Origin: Patescibacteria group bacterium
GTDB lineage: Bacteria; Patescibacteriota; Patescibacteriia; 2-12-FULL-60-25
Direction: 5' to 3'
DNA: 58,918 bases
Assembly: GCA_018061755.1 (NCBI GenBank)
Contig: JAGOTP010000004.1
Span: 1-58,918 of the forward strand
The notes under the pieces are model-generated. The model was not told where the DNA came from. It was given only the letters and a program-made list of their open reading frames with translations, and did not search any database. The translations under genes and the position numbers were made by a program. How positions within the stretch are numbered: position 1 is the first letter of the stretch; every line of letters begins with the position of its first letter. Below are positions 937 to 39,164 of the stretch, in pieces.

Positions 937-970
937 CCCAATTCACATGCAAACGACGACGTGGTTTACC

Positions 971-990
971 ATGTCGCTCGCGAGCGACAT
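971..990. repeat. Perfect 20-bp palindrome abutting the tRNA-Glu
   Basis: The sequence ATGTCGCTCG is followed directly by its reverse complement, ending one base before the tRNA starts. As RNA it would fold into a hairpin at the 5' end of the tRNA precursor, or act as a transcript end for murF. There is no T-run after it on the plus strand, so a classical terminator is unlikely. A processing signal or protein-binding site are alternatives. Confidence 0.6.
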
Positions 991-1065
991 GGCCTCATCG
1001 TTTAATGGCTAGGACAACCCCCTCTCACGGGGTAAATGGGGGTTCGATTCCCCCTGGGGCTACCA
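991..1065 (+). tRNA. tRNA-Glu (anticodon CTC), CCA encoded
   Basis: The sequence folds as a cloverleaf. The 7-bp acceptor stem GGCCTCA/TGGGGCT includes G-U pairs. The anticodon stem ACCCC/GGGGT closes the loop CTCTCAC, giving anticodon CTC. The T arm has GGTTCGATTCC and the 3' CCA is encoded. It reads GAG codons. The 3' half is overlapped on the other strand by the end of the serine recombinase reading frame, whose TGA stop falls in the anticodon loop. This is a common sign that an element has inserted at the tRNA 3' end. Confidence 0.95.
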
Positions 1066-2584: not shown

Positions 2585-2596
2585 ACAGATTGTATT

Positions 2597-2779
2597 CTAG
2601 CTCGGATTATGACTCTCGGGCAGTAACCCGCAGGGGATTTTGGAACTCGTTTCTTCATTCATTTTTTCCAGCGCTAAGTCAGTCAATCCATAGTATAGGT
2701 CGCGCAACTCCAAAAGTTCCTCATCCGATAGGTGGTCAAGGTTGGGTACGATCTTTCGCAACTTCTCCAAGCTCAACAT
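2597..2779 (-). CDS. Small acidic helical protein upstream of the recombinase
   Basis: The product is 60 aa from the ATG at 2779. A longer reading from 2815 would run through a hairpin terminator, so I prefer the shorter start. It is rich in Leu and Glu (LSDEELLELRDLYYGLTDLALEKMNEE) and probably forms two helices. It ends 12 bases before the recombinase start and is probably co-transcribed with it. Small helical partners often precede recombinases in such elements. No family is recognised, and a role as accessory factor is only a guess from context. Confidence 0.55.
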   Translation of the reverse strand: MLSLEKLRKIVPNLDHLSDEELLELRDLYYGLTDLALEKMNEETSSKIPCGLLPESHNPS

Positions 2780-2785
2780 AACAAA

Positions 2786-2806
2786 ACCCACGATACGCTC
2801 GTGGGT
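2786..2806 (-). terminator. Hairpin terminator between the 219-aa gene and the recombinase pair
   Basis: ACCCACGA and TCGTGGGT form a perfect 8-bp stem with a 5-base loop. On the minus strand it is followed by TTTTGTT just before the ATG at 2779. It ends the transcript of the gene that stops at 2855, or acts as an attenuator in front of the small gene. Confidence 0.6.
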
Positions 2807-2854
2807 CATGTTCAAATCACGCCTATTCCGTGTGGATCACGTGTAACTCGTTAG

Positions 2855-3514
2855 TCAGAGAAGACGCTTGATTGTACCGCCATCCGCCTTAAATAGAATC
2901 TCTATCCCAAGTTCTTCCTTAGTTTTGTTGTTCAACCGGACCATGGTTTCATAGACGGGCCGCATGGCCTTCTTATCACCCAGCTCATCTCCGCTGAAAA
3001 GTTCGTAGATAACGGACTGTTCTATCGCTGTCATTGGTTCATGTGAATACATCTCACGACAAAAAAGATGTTCATTAGTGCTTGTCCGTAGCTGGCATGT
3101 TTTGTCACGAAAAAAGAGCCTCGCCTCTCGATCATCGAAGAACGTTCCGTCCTTCGCGCTAAAAGCCGTAACGGATGCGTCTGATGTCTTGGTGAACGCC
3201 ACGCACAACGTATCAAATTCAGCTTGAAGAAGGGTAATTTTGTAACCTACCGGCTCGTATCCTGACATCTTCGCAATAAAATCTAATGTCATGGGCACTT
3301 CGTAAAATGGATCTGCTTCCACTGCATGTTTTTTGACCAGCATTTCTATGATCGACTTTTGGTCTTGTTTGGTTGGAGTGGTTGGATTGCTTGAGGTGTC
3401 TATTCGATACTTAAAAACGGCGTCTGACATGGACAGCGCCTTATCGTGTTTGATCTTGTTCAAAACCCACAAGACTTTTGCTTGGGCTTGTTTCTCGACC
3501 AACAGGGGATCCAT
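2855..3514 (-). CDS. Unknown cytoplasmic protein, 219 aa
   Basis: I do not recognise a family. The protein has no signal peptide or membrane segment. The first 35 residues are helical and basic. The middle contains a segment rich in beta strands (PVGYKITLLQAEFDTLCVAFT). The C-terminal 80 residues look like a small helical, possibly winged-helix, domain ending in a Lys/Arg-rich tail (GGTIKRLL). It lies in the recombinase island, divergent from the zinc-ribbon gene at 3740, with a structured RNA region between them. A terminator hairpin follows 49 bases after its stop. A DNA-binding or regulatory role would fit the context but is not demonstrated. Confidence 0.6.
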   Translation of the reverse strand: MDPLLVEKQAQAKVLWVLNKIKHDKALSMSDAVFKYRIDTSSNPTTPTKQDQKSIIEMLVKKHAVEADPFYEVPMTLDFIAKMSGYEPVGYKITLLQAEFDTLCVAFTKTSDASVTAFSAKDGTFFDDREARLFFRDKTCQLRTSTNEHLFCREMYSHEPMTAIEQSVIYELFSGDELGDKKAMRPVYETMVRLNNKTKEELGIEILFKADGGTIKRLL

Positions 3515-3599
3515 AGCAATGTTGCGCTCTCATCATAAATGACTTACCGTAGCGATGTCGAGATTCAAGTAATAAATACCCGAGCAGGGCCTACTTTGC

Positions 3600-3709
3600 C
3601 TTGTTTGTTAGGAGTTATTGATGCCCCGTAAAGGGCACTCCTGATAAAACAAGCAGCAATGACTCCGGTCTTGTTACTTGGGTCTCGACACCTCAGGGGT
3701 GTCCTTTTT
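3600..3709 (+). ncRNA. Candidate small structured RNA or leader with terminator
   Basis: Three nested stems are visible: CTTGTTT/AAACAAG (3600-3606 with 3647-3653), AGGAGT/ACTCCT (3610-3615 with 3637-3642) and GCCC/GGGC (3623-3626 with 3633-3636). A second hairpin, GACACC/GGTGTC at 3687-3703, is followed by TTTTT. Together they look like a structured domain plus intrinsic terminator, 31 bases before the ATG at 3740. It could be a free small RNA or an attenuator for the zinc-ribbon gene. It matches no RNA family I know. Confidence 0.5.
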
Positions 3710-3739
3710 GTTATGCCCCATTAACTCACTCATGCATCT

Positions 3740-4930
3740 ATGAAGCCCTGCCCCTACTGTGCCGAAGAGGTACAAGACGCTGCTATCAAGTGTCGTCACT
3801 GCAAAGCGGATCTCCCAACCGTTGAGAAAAAGCATGTTGAGACCGACAAAGCCTCTTCACCCGTAATCCGGCCCATCCCACCGCAAGCGACGTTCAGCCA
3901 AAGAGATAGGAAGTATCTCGGAAGGTTTGGGAAGGGTTTATTGATACTTATTCTGCTAGGGTTCAGCTTTAATGTTTGGTGGGTTACCCTCCCAATTCTG
4001 GCTATTTGGCTTCTACGTTTCAGAATCAAGATGGACGCAAAGAAGAAGTGGGGTCTTGTGATCGCTCTCGCCCTCATCCCATTCATCGGCACGGCTATCG
4101 TCTACGCACAAATTCCGACCGTGACCCTTTTAGAGCCTACAGACGGAGCAAAAATCCAAGCCGATACAATCCACGTCAAAGGGAAGGTGAGCCCACCTAC
4201 GGCGACTGTAGTCATCAATAGGAAAGATGTAACCCCAGAACAAGATGGGAGTTTTTCTTACGACCTATCATTGAAGTCGGGCAAGAATGAGCTGGATGTT
4301 TTCGCCAAGACAAAGAATCGCTCTAGCTGGCCAAAGAGTCTCACAATCCAACGAGACCCAACCGAAGCAGAAACAGCAGAAGCAAAGCGTCAGAAAGAGG
4401 CGGAAGATCAGGCTAAGGCCGACGCGAAGATCAAAGCATTCAGAGAACAGCTTACGAGCGAGATTACTACTTTGAAGGACTACAAGGCAGAGGCAAGCGT
4501 TCTTGGGAGTGACGTGGGTAGTGGGGTGGTTACCGTAAGAGGCTTCTTCAAGAGTTGGGCGACGGACGTAAAAGAAGGTCGCGCCTCAAAAGACCCTGAA
4601 ACAGTGAAACTCGCTGGCGAACTTGCAAAACAAGTCTCTCGCGTTCAAACAGCCATGTACCCAATCATGCGTAAGGCTTTTGCAGAGACATCTTCCGCGA
4701 AACTTTGGCGAGCTGATGCGAGCGTCAGGGTGATAGGGACAGGAAACAAGACTATCATCTTCACTTCCCACACATATGCTTCCAATTCCAACGTCGCTGA
4801 TTCGTATGAAGCGACTCAAGATGTGTTGGCGAATCTCAGATTCAGCCAAGTACGGTATGAGTGGTATGAAGGAAGTAAGTATCAATACTTCGATCTAAAC
4901 GTGCCAAAAGACGCGGATTTAGAGATCTAG
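3740..4930 (+). CDS. Zinc-ribbon membrane protein with Ig-like domain
   Basis: The protein is 396 aa. The N-terminus is a short zinc ribbon, CPYC (residues 4-7) and CRHC (18-21). Hydrophobic segments follow at about 57-88 and 100-122. Next comes a beta-sandwich (about 125-210, starting PTVTLLEPTDGAKI) of the kind seen in surface Ig-like or glucodextranase-B-type domains, then a charged Ala/Lys/Glu coiled coil (about 215-245) and a mixed alpha/beta C-terminal domain. It is likely an envelope protein with the zinc ribbon in the cytoplasm and the Ig-like part outside. It stands first of three plus-strand genes in the island. Its function is unknown. Confidence 0.7.
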   Translation: MKPCPYCAEEVQDAAIKCRHCKADLPTVEKKHVETDKASSPVIRPIPPQATFSQRDRKYLGRFGKGLLILILLGFSFNVWWVTLPILAIWLLRFRIKMDAKKKWGLVIALALIPFIGTAIVYAQIPTVTLLEPTDGAKIQADTIHVKGKVSPPTATVVINRKDVTPEQDGSFSYDLSLKSGKNELDVFAKTKNRSSWPKSLTIQRDPTEAETAEAKRQKEAEDQAKADAKIKAFREQLTSEITTLKDYKAEASVLGSDVGSGVVTVRGFFKSWATDVKEGRASKDPETVKLAGELAKQVSRVQTAMYPIMRKAFAETSSAKLWRADASVRVIGTGNKTIIFTSHTYASNSNVADSYEATQDVLANLRFSQVRYEWYEGSKYQYFDLNVPKDADLEI

Positions 4931-4993
4931 TTCTTACCCGTCCTCTTCGGCTTTACGAATCGTAGATGTGCGCACATACTCTCCCTAATCGCT

Positions 4994-5254
4994 ATGCTCA
5001 AAAACCTCTCACGTTTCTTTGTCGTGTTGTCAGTCGTAGGCGTGCTGTTCTCAGGCTCTCTTGTTGTTCCCACGGCCTACGCAAAGCCTGCACCAAAACC
5101 TGCCGTCGTGAACGTCGCTCCTGCGGTGAAAAAGAGTGTGAACAAAATCTGTCATGCCAAGGGGACGCGCTATTACACCCAGACGAAGACGTTTACTGCC
5201 TACAAGACACTGAAAGACTGTGTGAAGAGCGGGGGACGACTACCTAAAAGCTAA
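4994..5254 (+). CDS. Small secreted protein with CHxKG...YxTLxxCVxSGGR motif
   Basis: The product is 86 aa. A clear signal peptide covers residues 1-30 (basic start, hydrophobic core, cleavage near TAYA-KP). The mature part begins with a Pro/Ala/Val spacer and ends with a compact motif: CHAKG, aromatic residues, then YKTLKDCVKSGGRLPK. Two cysteines could pair. The motif recalls short C-terminal modules found beside secreted thermonuclease-like domains, but no nuclease domain is present here. The start is the ATG at 4994, with no SD sequence. It lies 63 bases after the zinc-ribbon gene and 23 before the next gene. Confidence 0.65.
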   Translation: MLKNLSRFFVVLSVVGVLFSGSLVVPTAYAKPAPKPAVVNVAPAVKKSVNKICHAKGTRYYTQTKTFTAYKTLKDCVKSGGRLPKS

Positions 5255-5277
5255 CCTGAAAAGCTAGGAGCGTAAAC

Positions 5278-5838
5278 ATGGAAAATGCGATCTGGAACTT
5301 GCTCCTTGGAGCGAAAGAAGATCTTACGTACTGTCACGAGATCTTAGCCCTGCCCAAGGCTTCGGCGATGAACTACGATCCAAGCCAGAGTATCGACCAG
5401 TTCTACATGACCGTCTGCAACCTCAGCTTCCATAACGCGCTGCTTATCATTTCTTCATTGATTGATACGAAACAGGCGAAGCCGGTCAGCTTCCGTAACT
5501 GGTCTGAATGCACTGATCGTGTCTGGCTAGACGGAATCGCTCAAAGGTTTGAGGCGAGCCCGTTAAAAATGATACGCGATAGAATCGTGGCTCACCAAGA
5601 CGCGGAGGTTGCCAGTATTGGCTTAATCTTGGGTCGGCGTCGGGGCATCTTCAATGACGCTCACGTGACGCAACTGCAAGGGTTTTTGGACGAAATGATC
5701 CAGTTCTTCTGTGGCCTAAATCCGGGCGGGAACAAGTACAGCTCAACTGCTTCATTCGATGCGTCTAGTGCTCAAGAAGAGGTCAAGGCGGCTCTAGAGA
5801 TCGCTAAGCCAAAGATGACTAGAAATCCGGTCATCTAA
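5278..5838 (+). CDS. Possible HEPN-fold protein (AbiU2-like), 186 aa
   Basis: The protein is all-helical. It contains the segment PLKMIRDRIVAHQDAE (about residues 96-111), which resembles the R-x(4-6)-H motif of HEPN domains (RDRIVAH). The preceding region, FHNALLIISSLID with an aromatic/Trp segment, is what I would expect of AbiU2-type HEPN proteins, which are linked to phage abortive infection. That assignment is by eye and not strong. A weak SD sequence (taggag, 8 bases before the ATG) is present, unlike most neighbours. The stop overlaps the stop of the convergent gene at 5835 by four bases. Confidence 0.5.
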   Translation: MENAIWNLLLGAKEDLTYCHEILALPKASAMNYDPSQSIDQFYMTVCNLSFHNALLIISSLIDTKQAKPVSFRNWSECTDRVWLDGIAQRFEASPLKMIRDRIVAHQDAEVASIGLILGRRRGIFNDAHVTQLQGFLDEMIQFFCGLNPGGNKYSSTASFDASSAQEEVKAALEIAKPKMTRNPVI

Positions 5839-6407
5839 GGACTGAGAGCGGTAAAGAAATGGTCAATTTTTAGATCATCTAGGCGCACCTCTTGGACGGG
5901 TTCTATCCCGTTTAGATGCATCAGTTTTAACTGAACCACATCAGGGAGCTTCGTTTTGTCTAGAACCTTGAATCTGAGCCGGAAAGACACATTCGGAACT
6001 AGAGAATTGTGGTGGTTGTAGACGATCCGGTCTCCTTCGGGCGACCAAGTGGCGGTCGAAAGTATGGCGATATTGGGATCAACCGGAGTATCGTTTTCTA
6101 CGGATACGGCTTGTTGGGTCAGTCCGACTATGTTGAAGGTTGGCTCAAGAAAAGCTCGCTTACCGTCATTTCTAAAAAATAGATCGAAAGAAACCAGATG
6201 ACCGGCGTCCGTGCCCTGTATGTTTGCGCGCCTCGCCTTAAAAATGGGTCGGTTCCACCAATCACGCATCCAACCCAAGCCCCAAATCACGGCTGACGCG
6301 GTAATACCGCCAGCCGCTCCCTCGATTATGCTGGGCCATCCGCTCTTTGAATCCGTGACTACAGCGACAATGTGGCTGCAATGCGAAAAAGCGCTGTAGA
6401 GATGCAT
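5835..6407 (-). CDS. Membrane-anchored protein of unknown function
   Basis: The product is about 190 aa from the ATG at 6407. An upstream ATG at 6449 lies inside the previous gene. One hydrophobic segment (IIEGAAGGITASAVIWGLGW, about residues 26-45) is followed by a beta-rich domain. The cytoplasmic or external placement of that domain is unclear. The ATG lies 8 bases after the stop of the helix-turn-helix gene upstream, so the two probably share a transcript. I recognise no family. Confidence 0.55.
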   Translation of the reverse strand: MHLYSAFSHCSHIVAVVTDSKSGWPSIIEGAAGGITASAVIWGLGWMRDWWNRPIFKARRANIQGTDAGHLVSFDLFFRNDGKRAFLEPTFNIVGLTQQAVSVENDTPVDPNIAILSTATWSPEGDRIVYNHHNSLVPNVSFRLRFKVLDKTKLPDVVQLKLMHLNGIEPVQEVRLDDLKIDHFFTALSP

Positions 6408-6414
6408 ATAAGGG

Positions 6415-6822
6415 TCAGGCTGCCCACGTAATTTTAGACATGGGATCACTCAGATCAAAACCATGATGGGTGCGTTGCAGCGTAAGGGGCTTGAGCTCCC
6501 CACGCGCTTCGCCGATCAGTCTAAACAGGATGCCATAGAGCTTGTCGGTCGGTACGTCGGCAAGAGTGCGTTGACCGAGTTCTTTTTCGACGGCTTCAAG
6601 CTGACGGGAGAGCGTTGCGAGCTCATGTTCCTTTGTTACGCGGTAACGCTCACGCAAAGATTCCTCATGGATCGCGCGTAGGTTTTGTATTGGTTCGGCC
6701 AGCTCATGACTCCATTCAATGAGTGTGGGTTTCGAGACGTTAATTTCTTTGGAGATATGTGAAAAACTCATGCCTTGAGCACGTAGCTCCATGAACTGAG
6801 CTTTACAGGCGGAATCTTTCAT
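6415..6822 (-). CDS. Helix-turn-helix DNA-binding protein with coiled coil
   Basis: The product is 135 aa. Residues 1-40 form a resolvase- or terminase-small-subunit-like helix-turn-helix (AQFMELRAQGMSFSHISKEI, then NVSKPTLIEW). A Glu/Arg-rich coiled coil follows at about 45-100. This combination is common in phage and integrated-element genes, where such proteins act as small terminase subunits or regulators; no large terminase is present here. It probably forms a unit with the membrane gene downstream. The family assignment is limited to the DNA-binding motif. Confidence 0.6.
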   Translation of the reverse strand: MKDSACKAQFMELRAQGMSFSHISKEINVSKPTLIEWSHELAEPIQNLRAIHEESLRERYRVTKEHELATLSRQLEAVEKELGQRTLADVPTDKLYGILFRLIGEARGELKPLTLQRTHHGFDLSDPMSKITWAA

Positions 6823-6887
6823 ATGAAGTACACGATTTTGCTTTATTTTAAATCATTATGGGGCGACCGTACAGGTAACGACAGGCA

Positions 6888-7694
6888 TCATTCTTGCTTG
6901 TCTGGCTGCCGCTTCTTACCGCTAGGCCACAGAGCGTTCACCTGTACCAGTGTCGCCCTCCCTAGCTGTTCGGATTTTGCCCTCAATACCAATAGCTCAT
7001 CTTCTACTTTTAACCATTGATCCGTTGGTTGCCCCGTGCGTTGGCGATACCGTAATACAACGGCGGCAAAATCAAGGTGCGCCGTTAAAAGTAGATCGCC
7101 CAGCAGAAGGGCTTTCTCTTCTTCAAAAATTGGTTCGTACTTTGGATTATGGACACCTGAGGCGTGGTCTTTAGTCCAGTAGAGCTGTGCGCCAAAGGTG
7201 CTTGCGTGTGCGGTCTTGCTAAGCATTTGGAAAGCCTTGCTGACTGATTCCTGACCGCGACCCACCAGATCCTTCTCTATAGCGTTTTCGCTGAAAGCAG
7301 CTTTAAACTCGGGACGGGTTTGATAGTCGTTTTGTTTTTCCAATAAGAATAGGTCTAATAACTCGGGATGGTAGGAGAGATATTGGAGCATGGAAAGATC
7401 GCTCATGACGTTCCTCGTCAATGGAAAACAGTCTCCATACATACCGCCCTCTAGCAAAAGACGTACGCTTTCGACGTGTTGGATGGAGCGACTAAGCAGT
7501 ATCAAGGTGGCTTTACTGTATTTAACACCAGTATCGCCGCTGTCTTCATCGGCGGTGACTTCATCCAGTAAGAGATCAACGATTAAGTGAATCAGACCAA
7601 GACTCGACCAATAGACTGGGTAGAGCGGAGCGAGACGTAACTTCGTTAGCTCTTTTATCTCTCGTTCCTTCTCTTCAAACTCTGTTTCTGACAT
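6888..7694 (-). CDS. DUF5677-like helical protein (possible HEPN relative)
   Basis: The protein is 268 aa, fully helical and without a signal peptide. The segment LLSRSIQHVESVRLLLEGGMYGDCFPLTRNVMSDLSML (about residues 86-123) has the spacing of DUF5677-type proteins, in which a row of helices carries conserved Arg and Glu. Later SKTAHAST may supply the His of an R...H pair. The tail is basic. Together with the gene at 8978-9781 and the HEPN-like gene at 5278 it makes a cluster of similar folds in one island. The function is not established, although RNA-targeting or abortive-infection roles are known for HEPN relatives. Confidence 0.5.
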   Translation of the reverse strand: MSETEFEEKEREIKELTKLRLAPLYPVYWSSLGLIHLIVDLLLDEVTADEDSGDTGVKYSKATLILLSRSIQHVESVRLLLEGGMYGDCFPLTRNVMSDLSMLQYLSYHPELLDLFLLEKQNDYQTRPEFKAAFSENAIEKDLVGRGQESVSKAFQMLSKTAHASTFGAQLYWTKDHASGVHNPKYEPIFEEEKALLLGDLLLTAHLDFAAVVLRYRQRTGQPTDQWLKVEDELLVLRAKSEQLGRATLVQVNALWPSGKKRQPDKQE

Positions 7695-7851
7695 AGATGC
7701 TACCGGTATATCCTACGGAGTTACTGAGGTAAACATCCGTTCATAGAAGCCTGTAGATGATCCCTACGAACCCAGTTCCACTTTTCTAGCCACTCCACAT
7801 CATACCCTCCGGATGACGGCAGGGTGACGCGAGTAGACGTGCATTTGAAAA

Positions 7852-7911
7852 CAAAGGAGCCGGCATCTACGAGACGCGAGCTCCTTTGCGAAGCATTGCG
7901 TGTAGACACCG
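7852..7911 (-). terminator. Terminator hairpin of the GC-rich unit, with possible pseudoknot
   Basis: CAAAGGAGC (7852-7860) pairs perfectly with GCTCCTTTG (7880-7888). On the minus strand this is followed by TTTTC, making an intrinsic terminator about 85 bases after the stop at 7974. The loop segment 7861-7877 can also pair with 7898-7911 in three helices (CGG/CCG, TCTAC/GTAGA, ACGC/GCGT), which would form an H-type pseudoknot. Confidence 0.6.
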
Positions 7912-7973
7912 GCTAGATAAGAAAGAGGATGCGCTGCCGCGAGTGCGGTAAAGAGAGTTCTGCGTATTGTCGA

Positions 7974-8420
7974 TCAGGTCGTCGCGTCCGCGATGCGCTC
8001 GACGAGCTCCACCGTCTCCGCCAGCCGATCGGCGGGGGCGCTGTTCGGACGTGAGGTCAGGAAGGTGTCTCGAGTCGTCAGCGCCTCGATGATCTCGTCG
8101 ACCTTCGTCTGGGTGAGCCCGACCTCTTCGAGGGGCTGCCCGGCGGGGGGCTTGAAGATCGCGGCGACGAGAGAGGACGAGGAGCCGAGTTCCTTGATGA
8201 CCCCCTCCCGAGTTCCACTGAGGCCGGTGCGCAGCATCTCGAGCACCCCCTCCCGCGTCTCGTAGTTGCAGGACACGTCGAAGAGCGGCTTGTAGTCGTG
8301 GCCGGGGCCACGTGCGATGACGAGGCCGTACTTGCCCGACTCCGGGTCTTTGATGACCGCGAAGTAGAGGTCATCGGGGTTGGTGAAGATCTCGAGAGCC
8401 GTGATGAGCGACAGTCCCAT
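7974..8420 (-). CDS. GC-rich orphan protein, 148 aa
   Basis: The ATG at 8420 has a good SD sequence (TGGAGG, 6 bases away), unlike the core genes here; an in-frame extension to 8606 would reach into the promoter. The protein begins with a beta-rich segment (DLYFAVIKDPESGKYGLVIARG) and continues helical (REGVLEMLRTGL, TKVDEIIEALTTRD, RLAETVELVERIAD). There is no signal peptide or membrane span. Codons favour C or G in third position far more than in the flanking genes. It has its own promoter, leader hairpin and terminator. I recognise no family. Horizontal acquisition from a high-GC source is an inference. Confidence 0.65.
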   Translation of the reverse strand: MGLSLITALEIFTNPDDLYFAVIKDPESGKYGLVIARGPGHDYKPLFDVSCNYETREGVLEMLRTGLSGTREGVIKELGSSSSLVAAIFKPPAGQPLEEVGLTQTKVDEIIEALTTRDTFLTSRPNSAPADRLAETVELVERIADATT

Positions 8421-8771
8421 GGTGTGCCTCCAGAAACGATGCACCGTTTGGCGGTGGGGACGTAATGTCCCTATTGAGCTGTGTGAATCCTCACGCCGCA
8501 CTCTATCGAGATTGTGGCGCTGTGTAAGGGCAAAACGACCTATTTTGCTCTCACACAGAAGGATGTTGTAATGCGAGACTGTAGCAGAAAAAGACGGTTT
8601 TGTCAACCGGCCTGACGGCTAAAATAAGCCTTTTACGCTAGGATAAGCCACTCTCTAGCATACGGAATGATGTTTCTTAATAGATGCTCAGCTTCTCTTA
8701 ACGAATAGATGCCCGATTGGAGAGTTCTGCTCATCTAACGGATAGACTAGCGCTCCTGTAAGTACTTTATT
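8421..8771. other. Intergenic leader and promoter stretch
   Basis: These 351 bases hold no convincing gene. They contain the 5' leader of the unit at 7974-8420 with the hairpin GGGAC/GTCCC (8457-8471), then its promoter, then AT-rich DNA. The latter has loosely repeated units (AATAGATGC twice, and AACGGATAGAC) between about 8670 and 8750. These may be operator-like but are too diverged to call. Confidence 0.5.
8578..8606 (-). promoter_or_regulatory. Near-consensus sigma-70 promoter of the 148-aa gene
   Basis: On the minus strand: TTGACA at 8606-8601, a 17-base spacer, then TACAGT at 8583-8578. Transcription would start near 8571, giving a leader of about 150 bases that includes the hairpin at 8457-8471. 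Confidence 0.65.
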
Positions 8772-8978
8772 TTAAGCCAAAATCCGCTCTCGTTCTGCGT
8801 CCTTTCCGAACTCGTACCATTGTTTCAGCTCTAGGATGAGCGGGTTCCAAACTTCCTCTATGTGGGCTACCAAAGAAGAAACATCGTCACATGGCGGTGT
8901 TTTTTCGTTTTCAGAAGTTCTCACACTAATCTCTGGTTCCGATCTGCAAGATACTTTATCTAAAGTATTGTCTTTCAC
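8772..8978 (-). CDS. Small protein, possibly coupled to the HEPN-like gene
   Basis: The reading frame has 68 aa and a GTG start at 8978 that shares its first base with the TAG stop of the upstream gene (TAGTG), a typical translational-coupling overlap. The C-terminal half (VWNPLILELKQWYEFGKDAERERILA) is helical. The middle (residues about 24-38) is encoded by the degenerate copy of the tRNA-end/terminator block and resembles the last residues of the recombinase. It may therefore be a chance frame over an attachment-site remnant. Real gene or accident cannot be settled by eye. Confidence 0.35.
   Translation of the reverse strand: MKDNTLDKVSCRSEPEISVRTSENEKTPPCDDVSSLVAHIEEVWNPLILELKQWYEFGKDAERERILA
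8864..8905. repeat. Diverged copy of the tRNA-Glu 3' end and its terminator
   Basis: GGGCTACCAAA is identical to 1057-1067. It is followed at the same spacing by a hairpin (AAACATCGTC ... GGCGGTGTTT, then T-rich) whose stem differs from the first copy at several positions but still pairs. Similarity continues for about 15 bases beyond. This is a candidate right attachment site of the island. Confidence 0.5.
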
Positions 8979-9781
8979 TAGGAAAAGAATCTTGGACTTT
9001 TAAGAAGCTTGAACCCGTCAATGCTGCAATGATCTGTAATCATTTTGGCGAAGAAGGGTATGGTGATTAGTGAAAGTTTTAGTGCAGGCTTATACCAGAA
9101 CACATCAATTGCTATTTGATTCTTAAATTCCGCGAGGCTTAGGCCAGACCACTTCATGTCGCCCGCACCTAGTCTTCTAACGGCGCTGTGTGCATCGTAG
9201 TTAGGGTGAGAAGCATTACAGATAACCCCATAAAGATCAGTCATCGGAGTGCGGCTTTCTAAAGATTCTGTCTCGTTTTCTGCAATATATCTGTCCAATG
9301 TTTCAAACATTGTGAGAATATTTACAGAGTCTATATGACCAATTCTTAGTTTCCCACTATCTTTTTTACTAATCTTATTGCCTAAAGATATTTGTTGAAG
9401 GCATTTAAGATAGTCATCAGGTTTGAGATCGCGTTCCATCAAAGAGTATAGATGAGCCAATAGGGCGGGAATTTCCATGAATGACTTGAGGATCGCAAAT
9501 ACGCTTAAAATGTTTTGTGTATTTATTGCTTCAATCAAACCATTTCTTAAGTAGATAGATCTAAGAAGGGTACTACTTAGAATTTCTTGTATTCGAGCAG
9601 GGATCAGTCTCTCATCTGAAGGATCATATTGATAGTTAATGTCGGTATAGATATAGCTCTCAAGTTGGTCTATATATCCCTCTAAAAGATCAAATGTTTC
9701 AGATACCCCTTCGTATTCATAGGAAGAAGGGGGTATCACTGGTCTAATGAGTTTAATGTCTAGAAAATCAGTTTTGTTCAT
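8978..9781 (-). CDS. Helical protein resembling DUF5677/HEPN-type families, 267 aa
   Basis: The protein is AT-rich in coding and almost entirely helical. The segment LRSIYLRNGLIEAINTQNILSVFAILKSFMEIPALLAHLYS (about residues 72-112) has the Arg/Glu-spaced helices seen in DUF5677-like proteins. Later CNASHPNYDAH (about 187-197) offers conserved-looking His residues. It is similar in plan, not in close sequence, to the gene at 6888-7694. No membrane segment is seen, although SLITIPFFAKM is hydrophobic. It may be part of a defence-type island. The start is the ATG at 9781, with no clear SD sequence. Confidence 0.5.
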   Translation of the reverse strand: MNKTDFLDIKLIRPVIPPSSYEYEGVSETFDLLEGYIDQLESYIYTDINYQYDPSDERLIPARIQEILSSTLLRSIYLRNGLIEAINTQNILSVFAILKSFMEIPALLAHLYSLMERDLKPDDYLKCLQQISLGNKISKKDSGKLRIGHIDSVNILTMFETLDRYIAENETESLESRTPMTDLYGVICNASHPNYDAHSAVRRLGAGDMKWSGLSLAEFKNQIAIDVFWYKPALKLSLITIPFFAKMITDHCSIDGFKLLKSPRFFS

Positions 9782-9963
9782 ACGCTTAGTATCTCATTTC
9801 TTAATTGAAAACACGATATTTGGTGGATATTTTTTATGATTTGTTATCTGATGGTGTTTTTTGTTCGGAAAACCTCGAGATAAGATACTAGTATGAAGCC
9901 AAACGCTTGCGGATCCGGTATGTTGTCAGCATATTCCCCACACAAGACCCTTTTTCTTTCTTT

Positions 9964-11721
9964 ATGAGCACCCCTCCCCGCTGGGATCTAAGCGATTTGT
10001 TCATCGGCACCCACGATCCAGCCATCGACCAAGCCTTCGCCACGGCCGCTACTGAAAGCAAAGCTCTTGTGAACGACTACAAGGGTAAAGTTGCCACATT
10101 ATCCGCTGATCGTATCCGTGATTTGCTTGAACGGTACGAGCGTATTCTCCAGACTCTTACCAAGCCCACAGATTTCGCTTATTTGCTTTATACGATTGAT
10201 CCAGGTGACGCGACTCGTGAAGGTTTCCAATCCGTTATGCGCGAGCGTGCACTTGAGATCGAGCGTGAGATTATGTGGGTTAATTTGGAGCTGGCTGAGC
10301 TTTCAGAAGAACGCCTGAAGAACCTTTTGTCTGCACAAGAAACCGCTTTTTATCGCCATGTCTTGGAAAATAACTTGGCTGCCAAACCGCATCAATTACC
10401 CGAAGCCCAGGAACAGCTTATGGCTGACCTACAACAAACAGGTCGCCAAGCTTTTTATACCCTGTTCGAACAGGAGGATGCGACGAAACGGTTCCAGCTT
10501 GATGGCGAAGAGCGGACTTTGGAATCGTTGATCCATGAAGGGTATAACCCCGATCGTGCTGTCCGTAAACAAGCGGTTGAAGTGCTGTCTAAGGGTCTCG
10601 AGGAAGAAGCTCAGCGTCGCAGCTTCATCTATACAAACATCATCAAAAACAAGCAGACGACCGATAAATACCGTAAATATGAATACCCGGAGCAGGTACG
10701 GCATTTAGCCAATGAAACCACACAGGCTGCCGTCGAGGCGCTTGCCCAAACGGTTGAGGCTTACCAAGGCCTCTTCCAACAATATTACGTTTGGAAAGCC
10801 AAGCAGCTTGGGATCGAGAAGCTGGCTGATTATGATCTCTATGCTCCACTGCCAGGTGTCGAAAAGACCTACACCTTCGATGAGGCTCGTGAAATTGTTT
10901 TGCAATCATTTGCTGCCTTCTCACCGAAAATTGCGGCACATGCCAAAGAGTTCTTTGATAACGGCTGGATCGATGCCGAGCCTGCACCAGGCAAGCAAAA
11001 TGGTGCCTATTGCCAGTATATTTCTGCAGACCTCCACCCTTATGTCTTCCTGAATTTTCAAGGCAAGATCGGCGATGTGCTGACCCTGGCCCACGAGCTT
11101 GGACATGCCGTTCACACGATGCTGGCGCGACCAAAAGGCTATTTGCAGTTCACGACGCCGCTCACGCTCGCAGAAACCGCTAGCGTCTTTAGTGAAATAT
11201 TGGTCTTCGATGAGTTGCACAAGCAGCTGACCGATCCAAAGGACCGGATTGCCTTTACTGCAGCCAAGATCGAAGAAACCTTCTCGTCGGTCTTCCGTCA
11301 GATCAACCTGTACCGCTTCGAGCAGAAGGCTCACCATTTTGTCCGCGAACACGGCTTTGCGACGCCTGAGAACTACCAGGAAATGTGGATGGAGACCACA
11401 AAAGAGCTGTTTGGCAACGCGCTCGATGTCTCGCCTGAGTACCGTCACCGTTGGAGCTATATCAGCCATTTCTTCGACCGCGAGTTTTACGTCTACGCCT
11501 ATGCCTTTGGGGAACTTATCACTTGTTGCCTCTACGAGGAGTCAAAACTTCATCCGGAAAATTTCAGTGAGAAATATACTGAACTTTTGAGTGGGGGTGG
11601 TGCAAAGAGTCCTAAGGAATTACTCGCTCCCGTAGGTCTTGATCCAGAATCGACGGAGACTTGGAAGCGGGGATTGGAATGGATCAAGCGTCTTGTTGAT
11701 GAAACCACAGCTGGCACATAA
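9964..11721 (+). CDS. pepF: M3-family oligoendopeptidase (PepF-like)
   Basis: A cytoplasmic zinc peptidase of the M3B oligoendopeptidase F type that trims short peptides. The active-site motif HELGH is visible in TLAHELGHAVHTMLAR, with the third ligand region (ETASVFSEI) about 25 residues later. The length of about 585 aa is normal. I choose the ATG at 9964 (MSTPPRWDLSDLF), because the WDLSDL opening is typical for the family; the frame is open from 9907 upstream. It is the first core-type gene after the island, and the plus-strand arm starts here. It is followed 38 bases later by the dUTPase-fold gene. Confidence 0.9.
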   Translation: MSTPPRWDLSDLFIGTHDPAIDQAFATAATESKALVNDYKGKVATLSADRIRDLLERYERILQTLTKPTDFAYLLYTIDPGDATREGFQSVMRERALEIEREIMWVNLELAELSEERLKNLLSAQETAFYRHVLENNLAAKPHQLPEAQEQLMADLQQTGRQAFYTLFEQEDATKRFQLDGEERTLESLIHEGYNPDRAVRKQAVEVLSKGLEEEAQRRSFIYTNIIKNKQTTDKYRKYEYPEQVRHLANETTQAAVEALAQTVEAYQGLFQQYYVWKAKQLGIEKLADYDLYAPLPGVEKTYTFDEAREIVLQSFAAFSPKIAAHAKEFFDNGWIDAEPAPGKQNGAYCQYISADLHPYVFLNFQGKIGDVLTLAHELGHAVHTMLARPKGYLQFTTPLTLAETASVFSEILVFDELHKQLTDPKDRIAFTAAKIEETFSSVFRQINLYRFEQKAHHFVREHGFATPENYQEMWMETTKELFGNALDVSPEYRHRWSYISHFFDREFYVYAYAFGELITCCLYEESKLHPENFSEKYTELLSGGGAKSPKELLAPVGLDPESTETWKRGLEWIKRLVDETTAGT

Positions 11722-11759
11722 TAGCTGTAGTTCTTAACTGTTTACTTACACCTTACACT

Positions 11760-12608
11760 ATGGAGCAGACTGGTTCTCTTAACAAAAACAACATGGAGCT
11801 GGCCATTCGCCCTGATTTGATCAAGACAACGATGGAACGGCTGAAGGCGTTAGGCGGCTACTGGATCAGTCGAGATGTGAAGATGGAGAATAGTCTGACG
11901 ATTCCCGCAAGATCAATCGCACGTGACGAAGTAACTATCTCTTTGACGAAAGAGGATCTTCCGCCCGTTCCTCTCAGTCGCGAACTGTTTACGCTTTTAA
12001 ATTGGTCAACAAGAAGTTATCTAGCTCAAATTGGGATCGAAGTAGATTTTGATGCTGATTGTGTGACGGATGAGATGCTACTAGGTCTAAATGAAGGACG
12101 ACAGGTTAGTATTCCAGTCGATATCCTCAATCTTTCAAATAGGCCGATCGAAGTGAGCGGAGGAATCATGCGATTTTTTTGGGTCAACGAAGATCAGAGA
12201 TTACGAGGTGAAGGGTTAGCGGGAGCGGTGAACTCTCAACAAATCATGATTAAAGGTGTAGCAGGAGCTGACTGGATGATAAATGAAGGTGGAACTGCTA
12301 TCACGCTTCCGATTCGTCAGGTATTCGCTATCCCAACCTCAGAAGAAGTCGTACGCATTAGTGGTAAGAAAGACTTGCCAGGAGTTCAGATGCCTGTTTC
12401 ACAAGTGGAAGAGACTGAGTTCAAAATAGGGGAGACGCCTCCGATTCGAATGGGAAAGGAGACAGTAGGTGTTATTAATTGGGGAGTCCAAGATCTTGGC
12501 GGTCGCCATACCCGTTCTCCACTCATTGACCCTGGATTTGAGGGACCAATCAGAACGGAAACGGTAAACACGCAGGGACCGATCAGTCTTCTGTTGTATA
12601 GGAAATAG
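11760..12608 (+). CDS. dUTPase/dCTP deaminase-fold protein, divergent
   Basis: The protein is 282 aa. The C-terminal part contains GRHTRSPLIDPGFEGPIRTE, which matches the conserved IDPGF.G core of the trimeric dUTPase/dCTP deaminase superfamily, followed by a beta-rich end. The N-terminal 130 residues are unusual for this family and do not match the short dUTPase. A catalytic role in pyrimidine nucleotide clean-up is possible, but key deaminase residues cannot be verified by eye. The gene ends at a strong bidirectional hairpin and converges on the kinase gene. Confidence 0.6.
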   Translation: MEQTGSLNKNNMELAIRPDLIKTTMERLKALGGYWISRDVKMENSLTIPARSIARDEVTISLTKEDLPPVPLSRELFTLLNWSTRSYLAQIGIEVDFDADCVTDEMLLGLNEGRQVSIPVDILNLSNRPIEVSGGIMRFFWVNEDQRLRGEGLAGAVNSQQIMIKGVAGADWMINEGGTAITLPIRQVFAIPTSEEVVRISGKKDLPGVQMPVSQVEETEFKIGETPPIRMGKETVGVINWGVQDLGGRHTRSPLIDPGFEGPIRTETVNTQGPISLLLYRK

Positions 12609-31493: not shown

Positions 31494-33404
31494 ATGATCG
31501 AAGAAGTCCAAGTACGCCGTGAAAAACTAGAACGTCTCACGAAGCTTGGGATTGATGCCTATCCCAAAACCCATCGCCGTGATGCTTCGATTGGGTTGAT
31601 TCAAGCGTCTTTTGATGAGTTTGTCGCTCAAGGGAAGACGGTCACGGTAGGGGGCCGTGTTATGGCCGTCCGTGTGCACGGCGGCCTGGCCTTCGCAGAT
31701 TTGGTCGACGAAACGGGAAAGATCCAGCTGAGCTTGAAAGAGGAAGCACTGAACACGGCTTTCACTGTTTTTTGTGGCCAGATTGATCCAGGAGATATTC
31801 TCGAAGCCACAGGTATACCTTTTCTCACAAAGCGCGGAGAACGCTCGATTGCTGTTTCAGAATGGACGATTCTTGCCAAAGCCCTTCGTCCTTTGCCAGA
31901 CAAATGGCATGGTCTGCAAGATGTTGAGGCTCGTTATCGCCATCGTGAATTAGACCTCATAACGAGCTCTGAAGTAAAGAACACGTTTATTGTTCGATCT
32001 AAATTGGTTCAGTCGATGCGTCGTTTCTTGGACGAACGTGGATTCTTAGAGGTGGAAACCCCGATGCTCCATCCAATCCCAGGAGGAGCCAATGCCAAGC
32101 CATTCATCACGCACCACAACGCTCTCGATATCGATTTGTATCTGCGGATTGCCCCTGAGCTTTATTTGAAACGGTTGATCGTGGGAGGTTTTGAAAAAAT
32201 CTATGAAGTCGCGCGCTGTTTCCGCAACGAAGGGATCAGTCCGATGCATAATCCTGAGTTCACACAGATCGAACTGTATTGGGCGTTTGTTGGTCAGGAC
32301 TTTTTGGGTTTCTTGGAACAGATGCTTGTAACCATGATGGAGCAAGCAATTGGCTCAACCAAAGTTACGCGACAAGGTCATGAGCTTGATTTCAGCGCTC
32401 CTTGGTCACGCAAGACCTTTCGGGAGATTGTGCTTGAATCGTGTGGGATCGATGTGAACCGTTGTTTTACCTCAGAAGATGTCTTGAAAGAGGTGGCTAC
32501 GGCTGGTCTCAAGATCGATTTCCGTGGCTGTATTGGGTTGGGTGAACACTTGGATCAGCTCTATAAAAAGACCGCTCGCCCAGCTGTTGTTCAGCCAACG
32601 TGGGTTCTTGATTATCCGGTTGAAATGAAGCCGCTGGCTAATCGTAGCGCAGCAGACTCGACCAAGGCGGCTGTAGCTCAGCTCGTCGTCATGGGAGGAG
32701 AGATTGTGAACGCTTACTACTACGAGCTGAATGATCCGATCGATCAACGTCATCGTTTTGAAGAAGAAGAGAAGCTAGCGAGCCAAGGGAGTGAAGAGGC
32801 GCAGCGTATCGATGAAGATTTCTTGATGGCGCTTGAACAAGGCATGCCGCCGACAAGCGGTATGGGAATGGGTATCGACCGCTTAGTTGCCCTTCTCACG
32901 GATAGTCCAAGTTTGAAAGAAGTCATCTTCTTCCCAACACTTCGTCCGGTTGAACATTCGGGTAGTGAGATGAAAAAATCTAGCCAAACACAAGTTGCTC
33001 ATTCTGTCCTCTTGGATGATGGTAGTAAGCCACGTTGGAGTTTGCTAAACACAGCAGCGCATCTGGGAGCCTCCTTCGCCGCTCGTGAAGGCAAGAAGTT
33101 GATCCGGATGGATACGACGGAGACCAAAGATGGAGAAGCGATTCAGATGAATATCCAACATGCAATCATGATGAAGCGGGCAGCCGATTCAGCCGCGCTT
33201 CATCGTCTGAAGCAGGAAGCGGAGGCGCAGGGCTTACGAGTCGTGTGTTTAACCCAGGCGATGCAGGACTCAACGAACGATCAGAAGGTTAAGACGGCTC
33301 ATGCTGAAACCTTGGGAGATCAAACGAAGTATCTCGGTGTGCTGGTATTTGGTGGGAAGAAAGAAGTGGAGCAGCTTACCCAGACTTTCTCGTTGCTTGA
33401 GTAA
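31494..33404 (+). CDS. lysS: Lysyl-tRNA synthetase (class II) fused to a DUF2000 domain
   Basis: Residues 1-487 are a standard LysRS: OB-fold anticodon domain (TVGGRVMAVRVHGGLAFADLVD), motif 2 (FRNEGISPMHNPEFTQIELYWAF), and motif 3 (GMGMGIDRLVALLTD ... VIFFPTLRP). Residues about 488-636 are extra. They read VAHSVLLDDGSKPRWSLLNTAAHLG, then MQDSTND and YLGVLVFGGKKEVEQLTQTFSLL. That is the pattern of DUF2000, a peptidyl-tRNA hydrolase 2-like fold. The fusion is in one open frame with no break. It suggests a tRNA-linked activity, perhaps editing or peptidyl-tRNA release, but the role is unproven. Confidence 0.93.
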   Translation: MIEEVQVRREKLERLTKLGIDAYPKTHRRDASIGLIQASFDEFVAQGKTVTVGGRVMAVRVHGGLAFADLVDETGKIQLSLKEEALNTAFTVFCGQIDPGDILEATGIPFLTKRGERSIAVSEWTILAKALRPLPDKWHGLQDVEARYRHRELDLITSSEVKNTFIVRSKLVQSMRRFLDERGFLEVETPMLHPIPGGANAKPFITHHNALDIDLYLRIAPELYLKRLIVGGFEKIYEVARCFRNEGISPMHNPEFTQIELYWAFVGQDFLGFLEQMLVTMMEQAIGSTKVTRQGHELDFSAPWSRKTFREIVLESCGIDVNRCFTSEDVLKEVATAGLKIDFRGCIGLGEHLDQLYKKTARPAVVQPTWVLDYPVEMKPLANRSAADSTKAAVAQLVVMGGEIVNAYYYELNDPIDQRHRFEEEEKLASQGSEEAQRIDEDFLMALEQGMPPTSGMGMGIDRLVALLTDSPSLKEVIFFPTLRPVEHSGSEMKKSSQTQVAHSVLLDDGSKPRWSLLNTAAHLGASFAAREGKKLIRMDTTETKDGEAIQMNIQHAIMMKRAADSAALHRLKQEAEAQGLRVVCLTQAMQDSTNDQKVKTAHAETLGDQTKYLGVLVFGGKKEVEQLTQTFSLLE

Positions 33405-36228: not shown

Positions 36229-37005
36229 ATGCCCTCGCTCTTTACCCTACGTAAACCCTATTTGTTGGTAGGAGTGATTGCGTTCGTCGGTTGGATCTTC
36301 TTGCTTTTTCGTTCCGAGTATTTCGAGCTAAAAGATGTTGAGGTCCAGGCGAGTGGGGGAATCATCTCTTCAGCGGACGTGCTACCGTTAGTTTTTCGTA
36401 TTTTAGATGAGCAACCGGCTCGTCCTTGGTCCAAGCGTCAACGATTCTTTCTGCCAACAGCAGCTTTGGAGGAGGGGATCAAGACGACGCTCTATGCGGA
36501 AGAGGTCAAAGTAGGTGATACAGAAAATAATATTTTACGACTCAACATCTCGTTTGGTTCTAGGTACATCTATACCACTCAAAATGGAGAAGAGTTTCTT
36601 AAGTGCGCCATTGCTAGGCCAGCGGGGATTGTTGTTACAGACCAACCTGTTTTGAATGCGGCTAGAAAGCGCTACCTATCTACAGATTTTACGACACAAG
36701 ACTTAGACGGTCTGGTGTATGTTCGAAATGCTTCCGGAACGATGGATGTACCCACGATGAAGCAGCTTTTGGAGCTAGGACGAATTTTAGACGACCATCG
36801 AATCAAATTTGCGCATATTGAAGAACAAACGTCCTCAACCGTTGCTGTTCATCTAGATAGGGGTCACGAGGTCTTATTTGATCTAAGTCAGCCCTTAAAG
36901 GAGCAGGCAGAACGTTGTCAGGCTATTTTACGAGACAAAGACTATCAAAAGACCCTACCAGCAGTGATCGACCTCAGAATCCCAGGACGAGCCTATCTAC
37001 GGTAA
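36229..37005 (+). CDS. FtsQ/DivIB-like cell-division protein
   Basis: The product is 258 aa. A short cytoplasmic N-terminus and one membrane helix (about 10-28) are followed by a POTRA-like start (FELKDVEVQASGGIISSADVLPLVF) and a periplasmic beta domain. It ends in VIDLRIPGRAYLR, like the conserved yIDLR.pgr.y end of FtsQ. Sequence otherwise is diverged. FtsQ ties the division-site synthase to FtsL/B. Position after alr, near other wall genes, agrees. Three copies of the polar motif (36533, 36687, and 36926 with two changes) lie in the coding sequence. Confidence 0.75.
   Translation: MPSLFTLRKPYLLVGVIAFVGWIFLLFRSEYFELKDVEVQASGGIISSADVLPLVFRILDEQPARPWSKRQRFFLPTAALEEGIKTTLYAEEVKVGDTENNILRLNISFGSRYIYTTQNGEEFLKCAIARPAGIVVTDQPVLNAARKRYLSTDFTTQDLDGLVYVRNASGTMDVPTMKQLLELGRILDDHRIKFAHIEEQTSSTVAVHLDRGHEVLFDLSQPLKEQAERCQAILRDKDYQKTLPAVIDLRIPGRAYLR
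36533..36545 (+). repeat. Polar 13-bp motif copy 3 (12/13)
   Basis: TTTTACGACTCAA, inside the ftsQ-like gene; left-arm orientation. One base differs from the consensus. Confidence 0.65.
36687..36699 (+). repeat. Polar 13-bp motif copy 4 (12/13)
   Basis: TTTTACGACACAA, inside the ftsQ-like gene; left-arm orientation. A further copy with two changes (TTTTACGAGACAA) lies at 36926-36938. Confidence 0.65.
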
Positions 37006-37017
37006 GTCCTACCCTAT

Positions 37018-37045
37018 GTGTCGTATAACTATTATTGTACGACTC
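37018..37045. other. dif-like 28-bp site (11-6-11 dyad)
   Basis: The left arm is GTGTCGTATAA, the centre CTATTA, and the right arm TTGTACGACTC. The arms are inverted repeats at 9 of 11 positions. Eleven-base arms around a 6-base centre is the geometry of XerCD dif sites, and the left arm matches the common XerC-arm consensus (ATTTCGCATAA) at 8 of 11. It lies 13 bases after the ftsQ-like gene, at the point where gene direction switches. No xer gene is in the window, so the partner is unknown. Confidence 0.5.
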
Positions 37046-37222
37046 TATATACCAGGCTTCCTAGGGTACCTTTATACCGCTGCTGTTAGGCTGGGTTGAG
37101 CCAAAAATCTGCCATCGGTACTGAACGAGCATGTCTTCTTGTTGCTGTCTCTGCCCTACACCCTCCCTCAAGGTTCCAGTTGCGCCGATATCCTCCTGTC
37201 GGGTCAAGAACGAGCTCTGTTG

Positions 37223-37235
37223 TTTTACGACGCAA
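37223..37235 (+). repeat. Polar 13-bp motif copy 5 (exact, last left-arm copy)
   Basis: TTTTACGACGCAA, in the strand-switch region. It is the last copy before the orientation flips. Confidence 0.75.
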
Positions 37236-37365
37236 TGCTTCAACGATCTGTTGGATGCAGGAACTAGAGTATGGTGAAGAACGATCTCAGACCACGCTTC
37301 CCCTGCCTTACGGTGGCGTAAGGGCTCTGGTGCTTAAGTTGTTTTTTATTTATGGGTTTGATTAT

Positions 37366-37378
37366 TTGCGTCGTAAAA
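37366..37378 (-). repeat. Polar 13-bp motif copy 6 (exact, first right-arm copy)
   Basis: TTGCGTCGTAAAA on the plus strand, the reverse complement of the consensus. It extends to CGTTTTA, so the central AAAACGTTTT is itself palindromic. Confidence 0.75.
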
Positions 37379-37444
37379 CGTTTTATCTTTCTCCCAAAAA
37401 ACTGGGCGTAGCTATATTTCTTTTAGCTCCCCTCTCCATCTCGT

Positions 37445-37463
37445 GACCTGTTAGGTCTTTTTT
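37445..37463 (+). terminator. Terminator at the end of the plus-strand arm
   Basis: GACCT-GTT-AGGTC followed by six T. It overlaps the last codons of the convergent SanA-like gene. Confidence 0.65.
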
Positions 37464-38089
37464 GCAACTGGTGATTGTGGTGGAATTACGTTTATATCAA
37501 ACCAAGCCTTTAAACTCGATAACAGATCTCTCGTAACGAACCACAGATCCTTTTTATAGGGCCTGATGTTGGCAGGAACACCATATGCCTCTAATCCGAA
37601 AGAACGGCAGAGGTAGATAGCTCGACCTAGATGAAAACGCTGCGTGATCAAGACAATCCGCTTGAGACGATAGACCTGTGACGCGCGACGACAGCTTTCA
37701 TAGGTACGGAAACCTTCATCATCTAGAATGAATCGATCCGGCGCTGCACCACGTTCTAGAAGCCATTTATGCATTACAGGAATCTCGGCCTCGCGAAAGG
37801 CTCCACCATCCCCTGTTAGGAGCATAGGCGCCCCCAAGAGACTTGAGACGCGTTCACCAACGAGTAAACGATCGGCGAGAGCATCACTTGGCTGTCCAGA
37901 ATCCTCAATCCCCGCTCCTAAAATCAAAACGGCGTCTGGATGCTTCGCTAACTGATCAACCGGTTTGATGAAAGGAATAGCCGATAGCTGAACATGCAGA
38001 ATAATGCCTAACGCAACAAGACTAAGACCTCCTAGTACGGTTAGACTGATGTATAAAACTCTTAAATTGCGTCGTAAAACGTTAGACAT
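37451..38089 (-). CDS. SanA/DUF218-type envelope protein
   Basis: The product is 212 aa from the ATG at 38089. The frame runs to 38206 but would overlap rmuC. One N-terminal membrane helix (about 11-33) precedes a DUF218 domain: DAVLILGAGIEDSGQPSDALADRL, LLTGDGGAFREAEIPVMHKWLLERG and IVLITQRFHLGRAIYLCRSFGL. SanA-type proteins affect envelope permeability. Their chemistry is not known. Codons 4-8 contain an exact copy of the polar motif. It is first on the minus-strand arm after the switch point. Confidence 0.82.
   Translation of the reverse strand: MSNVLRRNLRVLYISLTVLGGLSLVALGIILHVQLSAIPFIKPVDQLAKHPDAVLILGAGIEDSGQPSDALADRLLVGERVSSLLGAPMLLTGDGGAFREAEIPVMHKWLLERGAAPDRFILDDEGFRTYESCRRASQVYRLKRIVLITQRFHLGRAIYLCRSFGLEAYGVPANIRPYKKDLWFVTRDLLSSLKAWFDINVIPPQSPVAKKT
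38067..38079 (-). repeat. Polar 13-bp motif copy 7 (exact, in SanA-like gene start)
   Basis: TTGCGTCGTAAAA on the plus strand. It encodes Val-Leu-Arg-Arg-Asn near the N-terminus of the SanA-like protein; right-arm orientation. Confidence 0.75.
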
Positions 38090-38123
38090 GGTAGATGCAA
38101 CCGCTTCCGTTTGCTCCCAAACC

Positions 38124-39164
38124 CTACTCGTCTGCAAATGGCTTTTCCAACATGACCGGCTGTGCTCCCAAGGCCTGACCCGTAATACGCAGAACATCCT
38201 TATCAATTTTCACAAACTCTTTGTTCGCCAGATTATATTGACTGACTGCCGTGCCCAAGTGCTTCCCGATCGACTGAAAGTAGCTCTCATAAGCTTGGAG
38301 ATGGCGTGTGAGATCTCCCACTCGTATACGAATCTCTTTGGCCTGCTCTTCGATCTTCATGGCATTTAAACCCTGCAGGACGGTCTGTAGATAGGCGGAG
38401 AAGGATGTAGGCGAGACAATGATGACGTGATACTTGGAGGCTGCGCGCTGCAGCAAGTTCTCCGCCTCCGCCGCTAAGGCACCAATCTTGTTGACGAGTA
38501 GATCGTAGTAAATCGCCTCATGAGGGATAAACATGAAAGCGAATTCCGTCGTTCCATCTTGCGGGCGAATATATTTCGAGGTTTCCAAGATACGTTGTTT
38601 GATATCGTTCAAAAACACCTTCTCCAAACGGTCCTTCTCATCGTCAGATGTCGCCTCAACTAAACGGTTGTAGTTTTCTAAGCTGAACTTAGAGTCGATT
38701 GGCACAATTTTGTCTTTGACAAAGATAGCCGCGTCAACAATGATCCCGTCTTTGAAGGGATACTGCATCTGGTACTGCTCGGGAGAGAACAGGTTCCTGA
38801 GCAACGTCTCGAGGTAATACTCACCCAACACACCGCGCTGCTTTGGATTACTCAGAATGCGCTGCAGTTGATCGAGCTGTGTCGAGAAGGACAATACCTG
38901 GCGATTCGTCTCCTCGATCTTTACGAGACGTTCTGTGACGTCACGTACGGTACTCGTCATGTGATGACTTGAGCTCTGCTGCTGCTTCATGGTCTCGATG
39001 AGCGAGGTCTTTACGTCCCCTTGCATGTAGTCGAGCTTCTGCTGCAACGCCAAGAACAGATTCGGATCGATCGCTGGCTGGGCTAAGCGTTCGGACATAC
39101 GCCAGAGCAGATAGCCGATCACTCCAAACCCCAAGACAAAAATAACCGGCAAGAGCCATGGCAT
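38124..39164 (-). CDS. rmuC: RmuC-type recombination protein
   Basis: The product is 346 aa. An N-terminal membrane helix (about 3-20) is followed by a coiled coil (about 35-110). The RmuC domain then follows with RGVLGEYYLETLLRNLF, IVDAAIFVKDKIVPIDSKFSLENY and FAFMFIPHEAIYYDLL. Members limit inversions at short repeats and contain a PD-(D/E)XK-like fold; the D...DSK residues are visible. The gene lies 34 bases upstream of the SanA-like start on the same strand. Confidence 0.9.
   Translation of the reverse strand: MPWLLPVIFVLGFGVIGYLLWRMSERLAQPAIDPNLFLALQQKLDYMQGDVKTSLIETMKQQQSSSHHMTSTVRDVTERLVKIEETNRQVLSFSTQLDQLQRILSNPKQRGVLGEYYLETLLRNLFSPEQYQMQYPFKDGIIVDAAIFVKDKIVPIDSKFSLENYNRLVEATSDDEKDRLEKVFLNDIKQRILETSKYIRPQDGTTEFAFMFIPHEAIYYDLLVNKIGALAAEAENLLQRAASKYHVIIVSPTSFSAYLQTVLQGLNAMKIEEQAKEIRIRVGDLTRHLQAYESYFQSIGKHLGTAVSQYNLANKEFVKIDKDVLRITGQALGAQPVMLEKPFADE

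Follow-up and report, generated by a model that had tools for sequence, protein, structure and literature searches.

A probable dif site at the probable replication terminus of Patescibacteria, with signs of a single-recombinase Xer system

The 28-bp sequence GTGTCGTATAACTATTATTGTACGACTC, located at positions 37018-37045 on the + strand of the window (the whole stretch of 58,918 nucleotides that was analysed, from the draft genome of a Patescibacteria group bacterium), is very probably dif, the site at the replication terminus where chromosome dimers would be resolved. The identification was made by comparison: the sequence is present in a single copy, is conserved in the class and the phylum, and appears to belong to a dif family that recurs across much of Patescibacteria, a large and mostly uncultured part of bacterial diversity. 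Together with the genes described below, it suggests an Xer/dif system that has a single recombinase and an FtsK carrying a gamma domain. No earlier description of a Patescibacteria dif or of its recombinase was found in the literature searched, in which subscription journals were thinly covered. A dif recognised at the level of the phylum would fix the replication terminus in draft genomes, would make a bacterial single-recombinase Xer system testable in E. coli assays, and would provide a candidate word for the orientation of FtsK.

The site, its conservation and the replication terminus

The site is composed of a left half-site, GTGTCGTATAA (37018-37028, + strand), a right half-site, TTGTACGACTC (37035-37045, + strand), and between them the 6-bp centre CTATTA (37029-37034, + strand), which is the predicted region of strand exchange. 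A sequence-only reading of the window had noted a 28-bp dyad with 11-base arms and a 6-base centre at a switch in gene strand, and had taken it for the terminus and dif of the chromosome. The dyad is present, with 9 of the 11 arm positions pairing around the centre, and so is the switch: nearly every long ORF between 16996 and 37005 is on the + strand and nearly every one between 37451 and 58868 on the - strand, with the exceptions that this reading had named. The final gene of the + strand replichore (36229-37005, + strand; 258 aa, no Pfam match) stops 12 bp before the site. A gap of about 400 bp (37046-37450) separates the site from the first - strand gene, which encodes a DUF218 protein (37451-38206, - strand), opens the - strand replichore, and is also next to the site in many genomes related at family level. 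A single weak terminator-like hairpin was detected in the gap (37445-37457), and no promoter-like site was found there.

Two other features of the window were noted. The first 12 kb (1-12000) have a flat GC skew and genes on mixed strands, unlike the polarised region from 12 to 37 kb. In the ORF at 31494-33404, the core of a class II (D/K/N-type) tRNA synthetase precedes a DUF2000 domain (E 5.5e-20), and the two appear to be fused.

Dyad geometry alone proves nothing here, because the genome (1.15 Mb in a 37-contig draft) contains 489 dyads that are equally good (11-6-11, at least 9 of 11 positions paired), 150 of them outside called ORFs and many terminator-like. Symmetry was therefore rejected as the identifying mark, and it is comparison that decides. 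When up to 3 mismatches are allowed, the 28-mer occurs once in the genome, and against the profile of the class the site scores 28.0 bits, while nothing else in the genome scores above 7.3. A search with its arms against 38 relatives returned 14 positive genomes with one site each and none for the reversed control; a conserved centre, GRTATA, emerged from this search even though it was absent from the query. The class consensus GTGTCGYATAAGRTATATTGTGCGACGC, searched with at most 3 mismatches in 381 genomes of the class, was found in 146, exactly once in each, and the reversed control again gave 0. With a slightly degenerate form of the consensus, 114 of 380 genomes of the phylum matched, in many families of other classes (control 0). 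A scan for the exact pattern in 84,980 species genomes recovered 37 loci, one site each, nearly all of them titled as Patescibacteria (Uhrbacteria, Magasanikbacteria, Kerfeldbacteria, Falkowbacteria, and others). One exact site comes from a contig of 5 kb that bears the title Woesearchaeota archaeon UBA10204, and is perhaps due to a binning error or to transfer.

Conservation extends to the place of the site. In seven genomes (G003, G007, G008, G010, G012, G013, and G017) the site lies within about 1.4 kb of the DUF218 gene, and within the family it is found at the same place in the same orientation; relatives located through the DUF218 gene rather than through the pattern also have the site beside it. 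Two of the sites, in G008 and G012, carry 4 mismatches and were missed by the consensus search with 3. The figure of 146 of 381 is a lower bound, since sites located through DUF218 escaped that search; the lack of a match in over half of the class genomes at this threshold is partly a threshold effect. In families f6, f32, f49, and f56 the site may be absent or replaced by a different one. Apparent double sites in G611 and G479 were considered as integrated prophages, a reading that we rejected; the copies stem from contig ends that overlap or from variation between strains.

The arms of the site in the window fit the class profile well, and four of its six departures from the consensus fall in the centre, where CTATTA differs from GRTATA at 4 of 6 positions. 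Across families, the GRTATA centre is otherwise well conserved.

Between about 12 kb and 36 kb of the window, GC skew lies above zero, and past about 44 kb it lies below; by arm, it is positive in the left arm (12001-37017, + strand) and mostly negative in the right arm (37046-58918, - strand). The cumulative skew of the window peaks at 36922, and 96 bp separate this peak from the dyad. In the 37-contig draft, skew was read contig by contig and yields no genome-wide extremum. Most contigs keep a constant sign, and the contig of the window (C33) has the largest switch from + to -; smaller switches in the same direction, on contigs without the site, occur in C9 and C17. The dnaA gene is located on contig C12 beside a switch from - to + near 30 kb, and this region is likely the origin. 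Two relatives, G023 and G168, each have one near-complete contig of 0.93-0.98 Mb. Skew sampled along these contigs stays positive over some 300 kb before the site, and is negative over some 400-500 kb past it. With the site always read in one orientation, skew was greater to the left than to the right in 49 of 52 further loci (Wilcoxon p 1.7e-9), and in 62 of 65 loci the gene to the left was on the + strand. The proposal that this is the terminus and dif of the chromosome is thus supported by skew, conservation and single copy.

The features tested for a dif are found at this site. It has 28 bp, with partly symmetric arms of 11 bp and a centre of 6 bp; one copy is present per chromosome in the source genome and in the class; and it is conserved among relatives at the terminus. 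It departs from the two-recombinase XerC/XerD form in two features and from the XerS/XerH form in the linkage of the recombinase gene, as described in the next section.

Half-sites, recombinase and FtsK

Both half-sites are XerC-like: the left reads GTGTCGYATAA, and the right, on the opposite strand, reads GCGTCGCACAA. The right half-site TTGTGCGACGC is not of the XerD type, TTATGTTAAAT. The arms are on average more symmetric (8.2 of 11 positions in the class and 8.7 of 11 in other classes) than those of the E. coli and B. subtilis dif sites (6 of 11).

The genome encodes two proteins with a PF00589 domain. The first, a protein of about 320 aa (ORF in L002; contig C35), has kept the catalytic residues R, K, HxxR, H, and Y. 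It is the one tyrosine recombinase conserved throughout the class. Among the 22 sequences compared, it belongs to a long type of about 310-330 aa with 54-71% identity to it, in which the catalytic residues are accompanied by a conserved [LI]T-x-RS motif, where x is mostly P ("LTPRS"). We read T-x-RS as XRX, the putative signature of dif binding by XerC, with the key position placed by our own alignment rather than from the figure of the paper. This Xer scores 236.7 bits against the XerC model and 237.4 bits against the XerD model, below the respective cut-offs of 335 and 330, so no protein here passes as XerC and another as XerD. Against the NCBIfam XerA model it scores 228.8 bits (cut-off 220), a model that also catches other integrases. 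Its best match in the PDB is 4a8e, an archaeal recombinase of XerC-like type, and XerA (5hxy) comes next.

The second protein (L003:1087-1920; 53.3-54.1 kb on C35) is closest to XerD models and no longer has the Arg, HxxR, and Tyr needed for catalysis. No good counterpart of it was found among the relatives compared; the idea of a conserved but catalytically dead Xer partner was rejected on this ground, and the protein looks like a decaying or non-catalytic paralogue. In G019, G022, and G026, PF00589 proteins of about 265 aa likewise occur, with truncated matches.

One recognition motif and two half-sites that are alike fit a single recombinase. Six genomes that are at least 97% complete (G005, G012, G025, G028, G036, and G037) have the site and exactly one Xer-type protein, the only one with PF00589, which makes a single-recombinase system look likely. 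The main alternative is a XerC/XerD dif served by two proteins, the second being either a variable tyrosine recombinase of 270 aa or a diverged Xer that was missed. A second tyrosine recombinase is indeed present in many genomes, with two to eight matches in several relatives, and the fixed polarity of the site implies that its half-sites are not fully equivalent. Against this stand the six near-complete genomes, the XerC-like character of both half-sites, the high symmetry of the arms, and the lack of the T-x-RS motif in the 270-aa type. We regard the two-recombinase form as unlikely and prefer the single-recombinase reading.

In comparison with the canonical XerC/XerD-dif of E. coli and B. 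subtilis, the site shares the length of 28 bp, the 11-6-11 arrangement, the single copy, the position at the GC-skew shift point, and a XerC-like left half-site; the FtsK gamma domain and the separation of dif and xer are also shared. It differs in its XerC-like right half-site and in having apparently one recombinase. Against a profile built from the known dif sites of E. coli, B. subtilis, V. cholerae, H. influenzae, and S. aureus, the site reaches 1.2 and 4.7 bits on its two strands, whereas the members of the profile score 28-32; scans with canonical dif sites would therefore miss it.

The archaeal XerA-dif system (PMC2958812) likewise has one Xer, arms with few mismatches, and a xer gene that is not beside dif. 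XerA has been described as independent of FtsK (PMC5357621), whereas here the organism is bacterial, an FtsK with a gamma domain is present, and XRX rather than XKX occupies the aligned position. In XerH-difH and XerS-difSL (PMC5357621), too, one bacterial Xer works with FtsK. In those systems the gene adjoins the site and the proteins have about 355 aa (PMC5357621); here the Xer scores far below the XerS cut-off and its gene is far from the site, which lies on C33 while the gene is on C35. The two are also unlinked in G011, G023, and G037, lying at 302 kb and 683 kb in G023 and at 57.6 kb and 634.6 kb in G037.

The FtsK of the source genome is complete, with its 4TM, alpha, motor, and gamma domains. 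We propose that recombination between sister chromosomes would leave a dimer, and that FtsK at the division septum would pump DNA towards the site, guided by the word AGGGGA on both chromosome arms. The single Xer would then bind both XerC-like half-sites at the two copies of dif, one protein serving the two half-sites, and the gamma domain of FtsK would activate it. Exchange of strands across the 6-bp centre by the activated Xer would free two monomers.

The strand-biased word AGGGGA

AGGGGA is the most strand-skewed hexamer in the source genome outside the window, with 328 occurrences on the leading and 55 on the lagging strand; its anagrams have ratios of about 1:1 to 2.5:1. The leading-strand excess is 201:22 in genes coded on the leading strand and 97:18 in genes coded on the lagging strand. 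As the word still prefers the leading strand in lagging-coded genes, it follows the replichore and not the coding strand. In the whole window it occurs 20 times forward and once in reverse to the left of the site (16 and 1 within the left arm, 12001-37017), and 3 times forward and 25 times in reverse to the right (37046-58918). The same reversal recurs in ten other families, where counts taken within 20 kb of the site add up to 102/13 on its left and 8/100 on its right, and it persists in G011, G023, G060, and G079, where GC skew to the right of the site is near zero. In G023 and G168, GGGGAG or AGGGGA tops the hexamers when these are ranked by strand ratio, though not when ranked by z.

We rejected a Shine-Dalgarno explanation of the bias: the 22 nt that precede called ORF starts contain only 2 matches, and the word is skewed in antisense in lagging-coded genes. 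Like the KOPS of E. coli, AGGGGA is a short G-rich word of the leading strand that points to dif from both arms, independent of the coding strand, and reverses at dif. It differs in its letters, and its standing is that of a candidate; judged from its distribution, which is as expected of KOPS, AGGGGA is a candidate KOPS-like word that may orient FtsK.

Viral copies and other readings of the site

Three scans of IMG/VR with partial forms of the site returned about 70 distinct viral contigs (L277-L346); by a rough estimate on an assumed collection size, well under one match was expected by chance. A large terminase subunit was recognised in 46 of these stretches, 38 of which have it no more than 2.5 kb away from the site. 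The distance between terminase and site is often 75-800 bp, and this holds across unrelated terminase families. A recognisable tyrosine recombinase was present in 2 of the 70 stretches, many of which are partial contigs. The viral 28-mer may be an attP that is used with the Xer of the host, or a resolution site of the phage itself. The assignment of hosts to uncultured phages is hard, and the 28-mer is a possible sequence tag linking such phages to Patescibacteria.

We give about even odds to a reading that joins all of these elements: an ancestral dif with two XerC-like half-sites would be common to much of Patescibacteria and be served by a single Xer with the XerC-type motif and by an FtsK that reads AGGGGA, and tailed phages would have adopted the 28-mer near their terminase genes so as to be integrated or resolved with the Xer of the host.

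The viral copies, often beside terminase genes, could also suggest that the site serves for the attachment of a phage or mobile element, and that its position at the terminus is incidental. This is very improbable, as the window has no phage genes flanking the site, and in one genome after another the site coincides with the skew switch; the viral copies are better read as phages borrowing dif.

A bidirectional transcription terminator with the dyad as its RNA hairpin would suit a site between convergent genes whose strand folds at -10 kcal/mol (z -2.9), in a genome where many similar dyads look terminator-like, but it can hardly account for a sequence that lacks a T run on either side, occurs once per genome in a constant polarity to GC skew, and is conserved across classes in its letters, including those of the 6-bp centre, and not merely in its pairing. 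Dif remains the preferred reading here too: a + strand gene lies to the right of the site in 13 of 65 loci, 8 sites overlap a called ORF, and the 28-mer is conserved at loci without convergent transcription.
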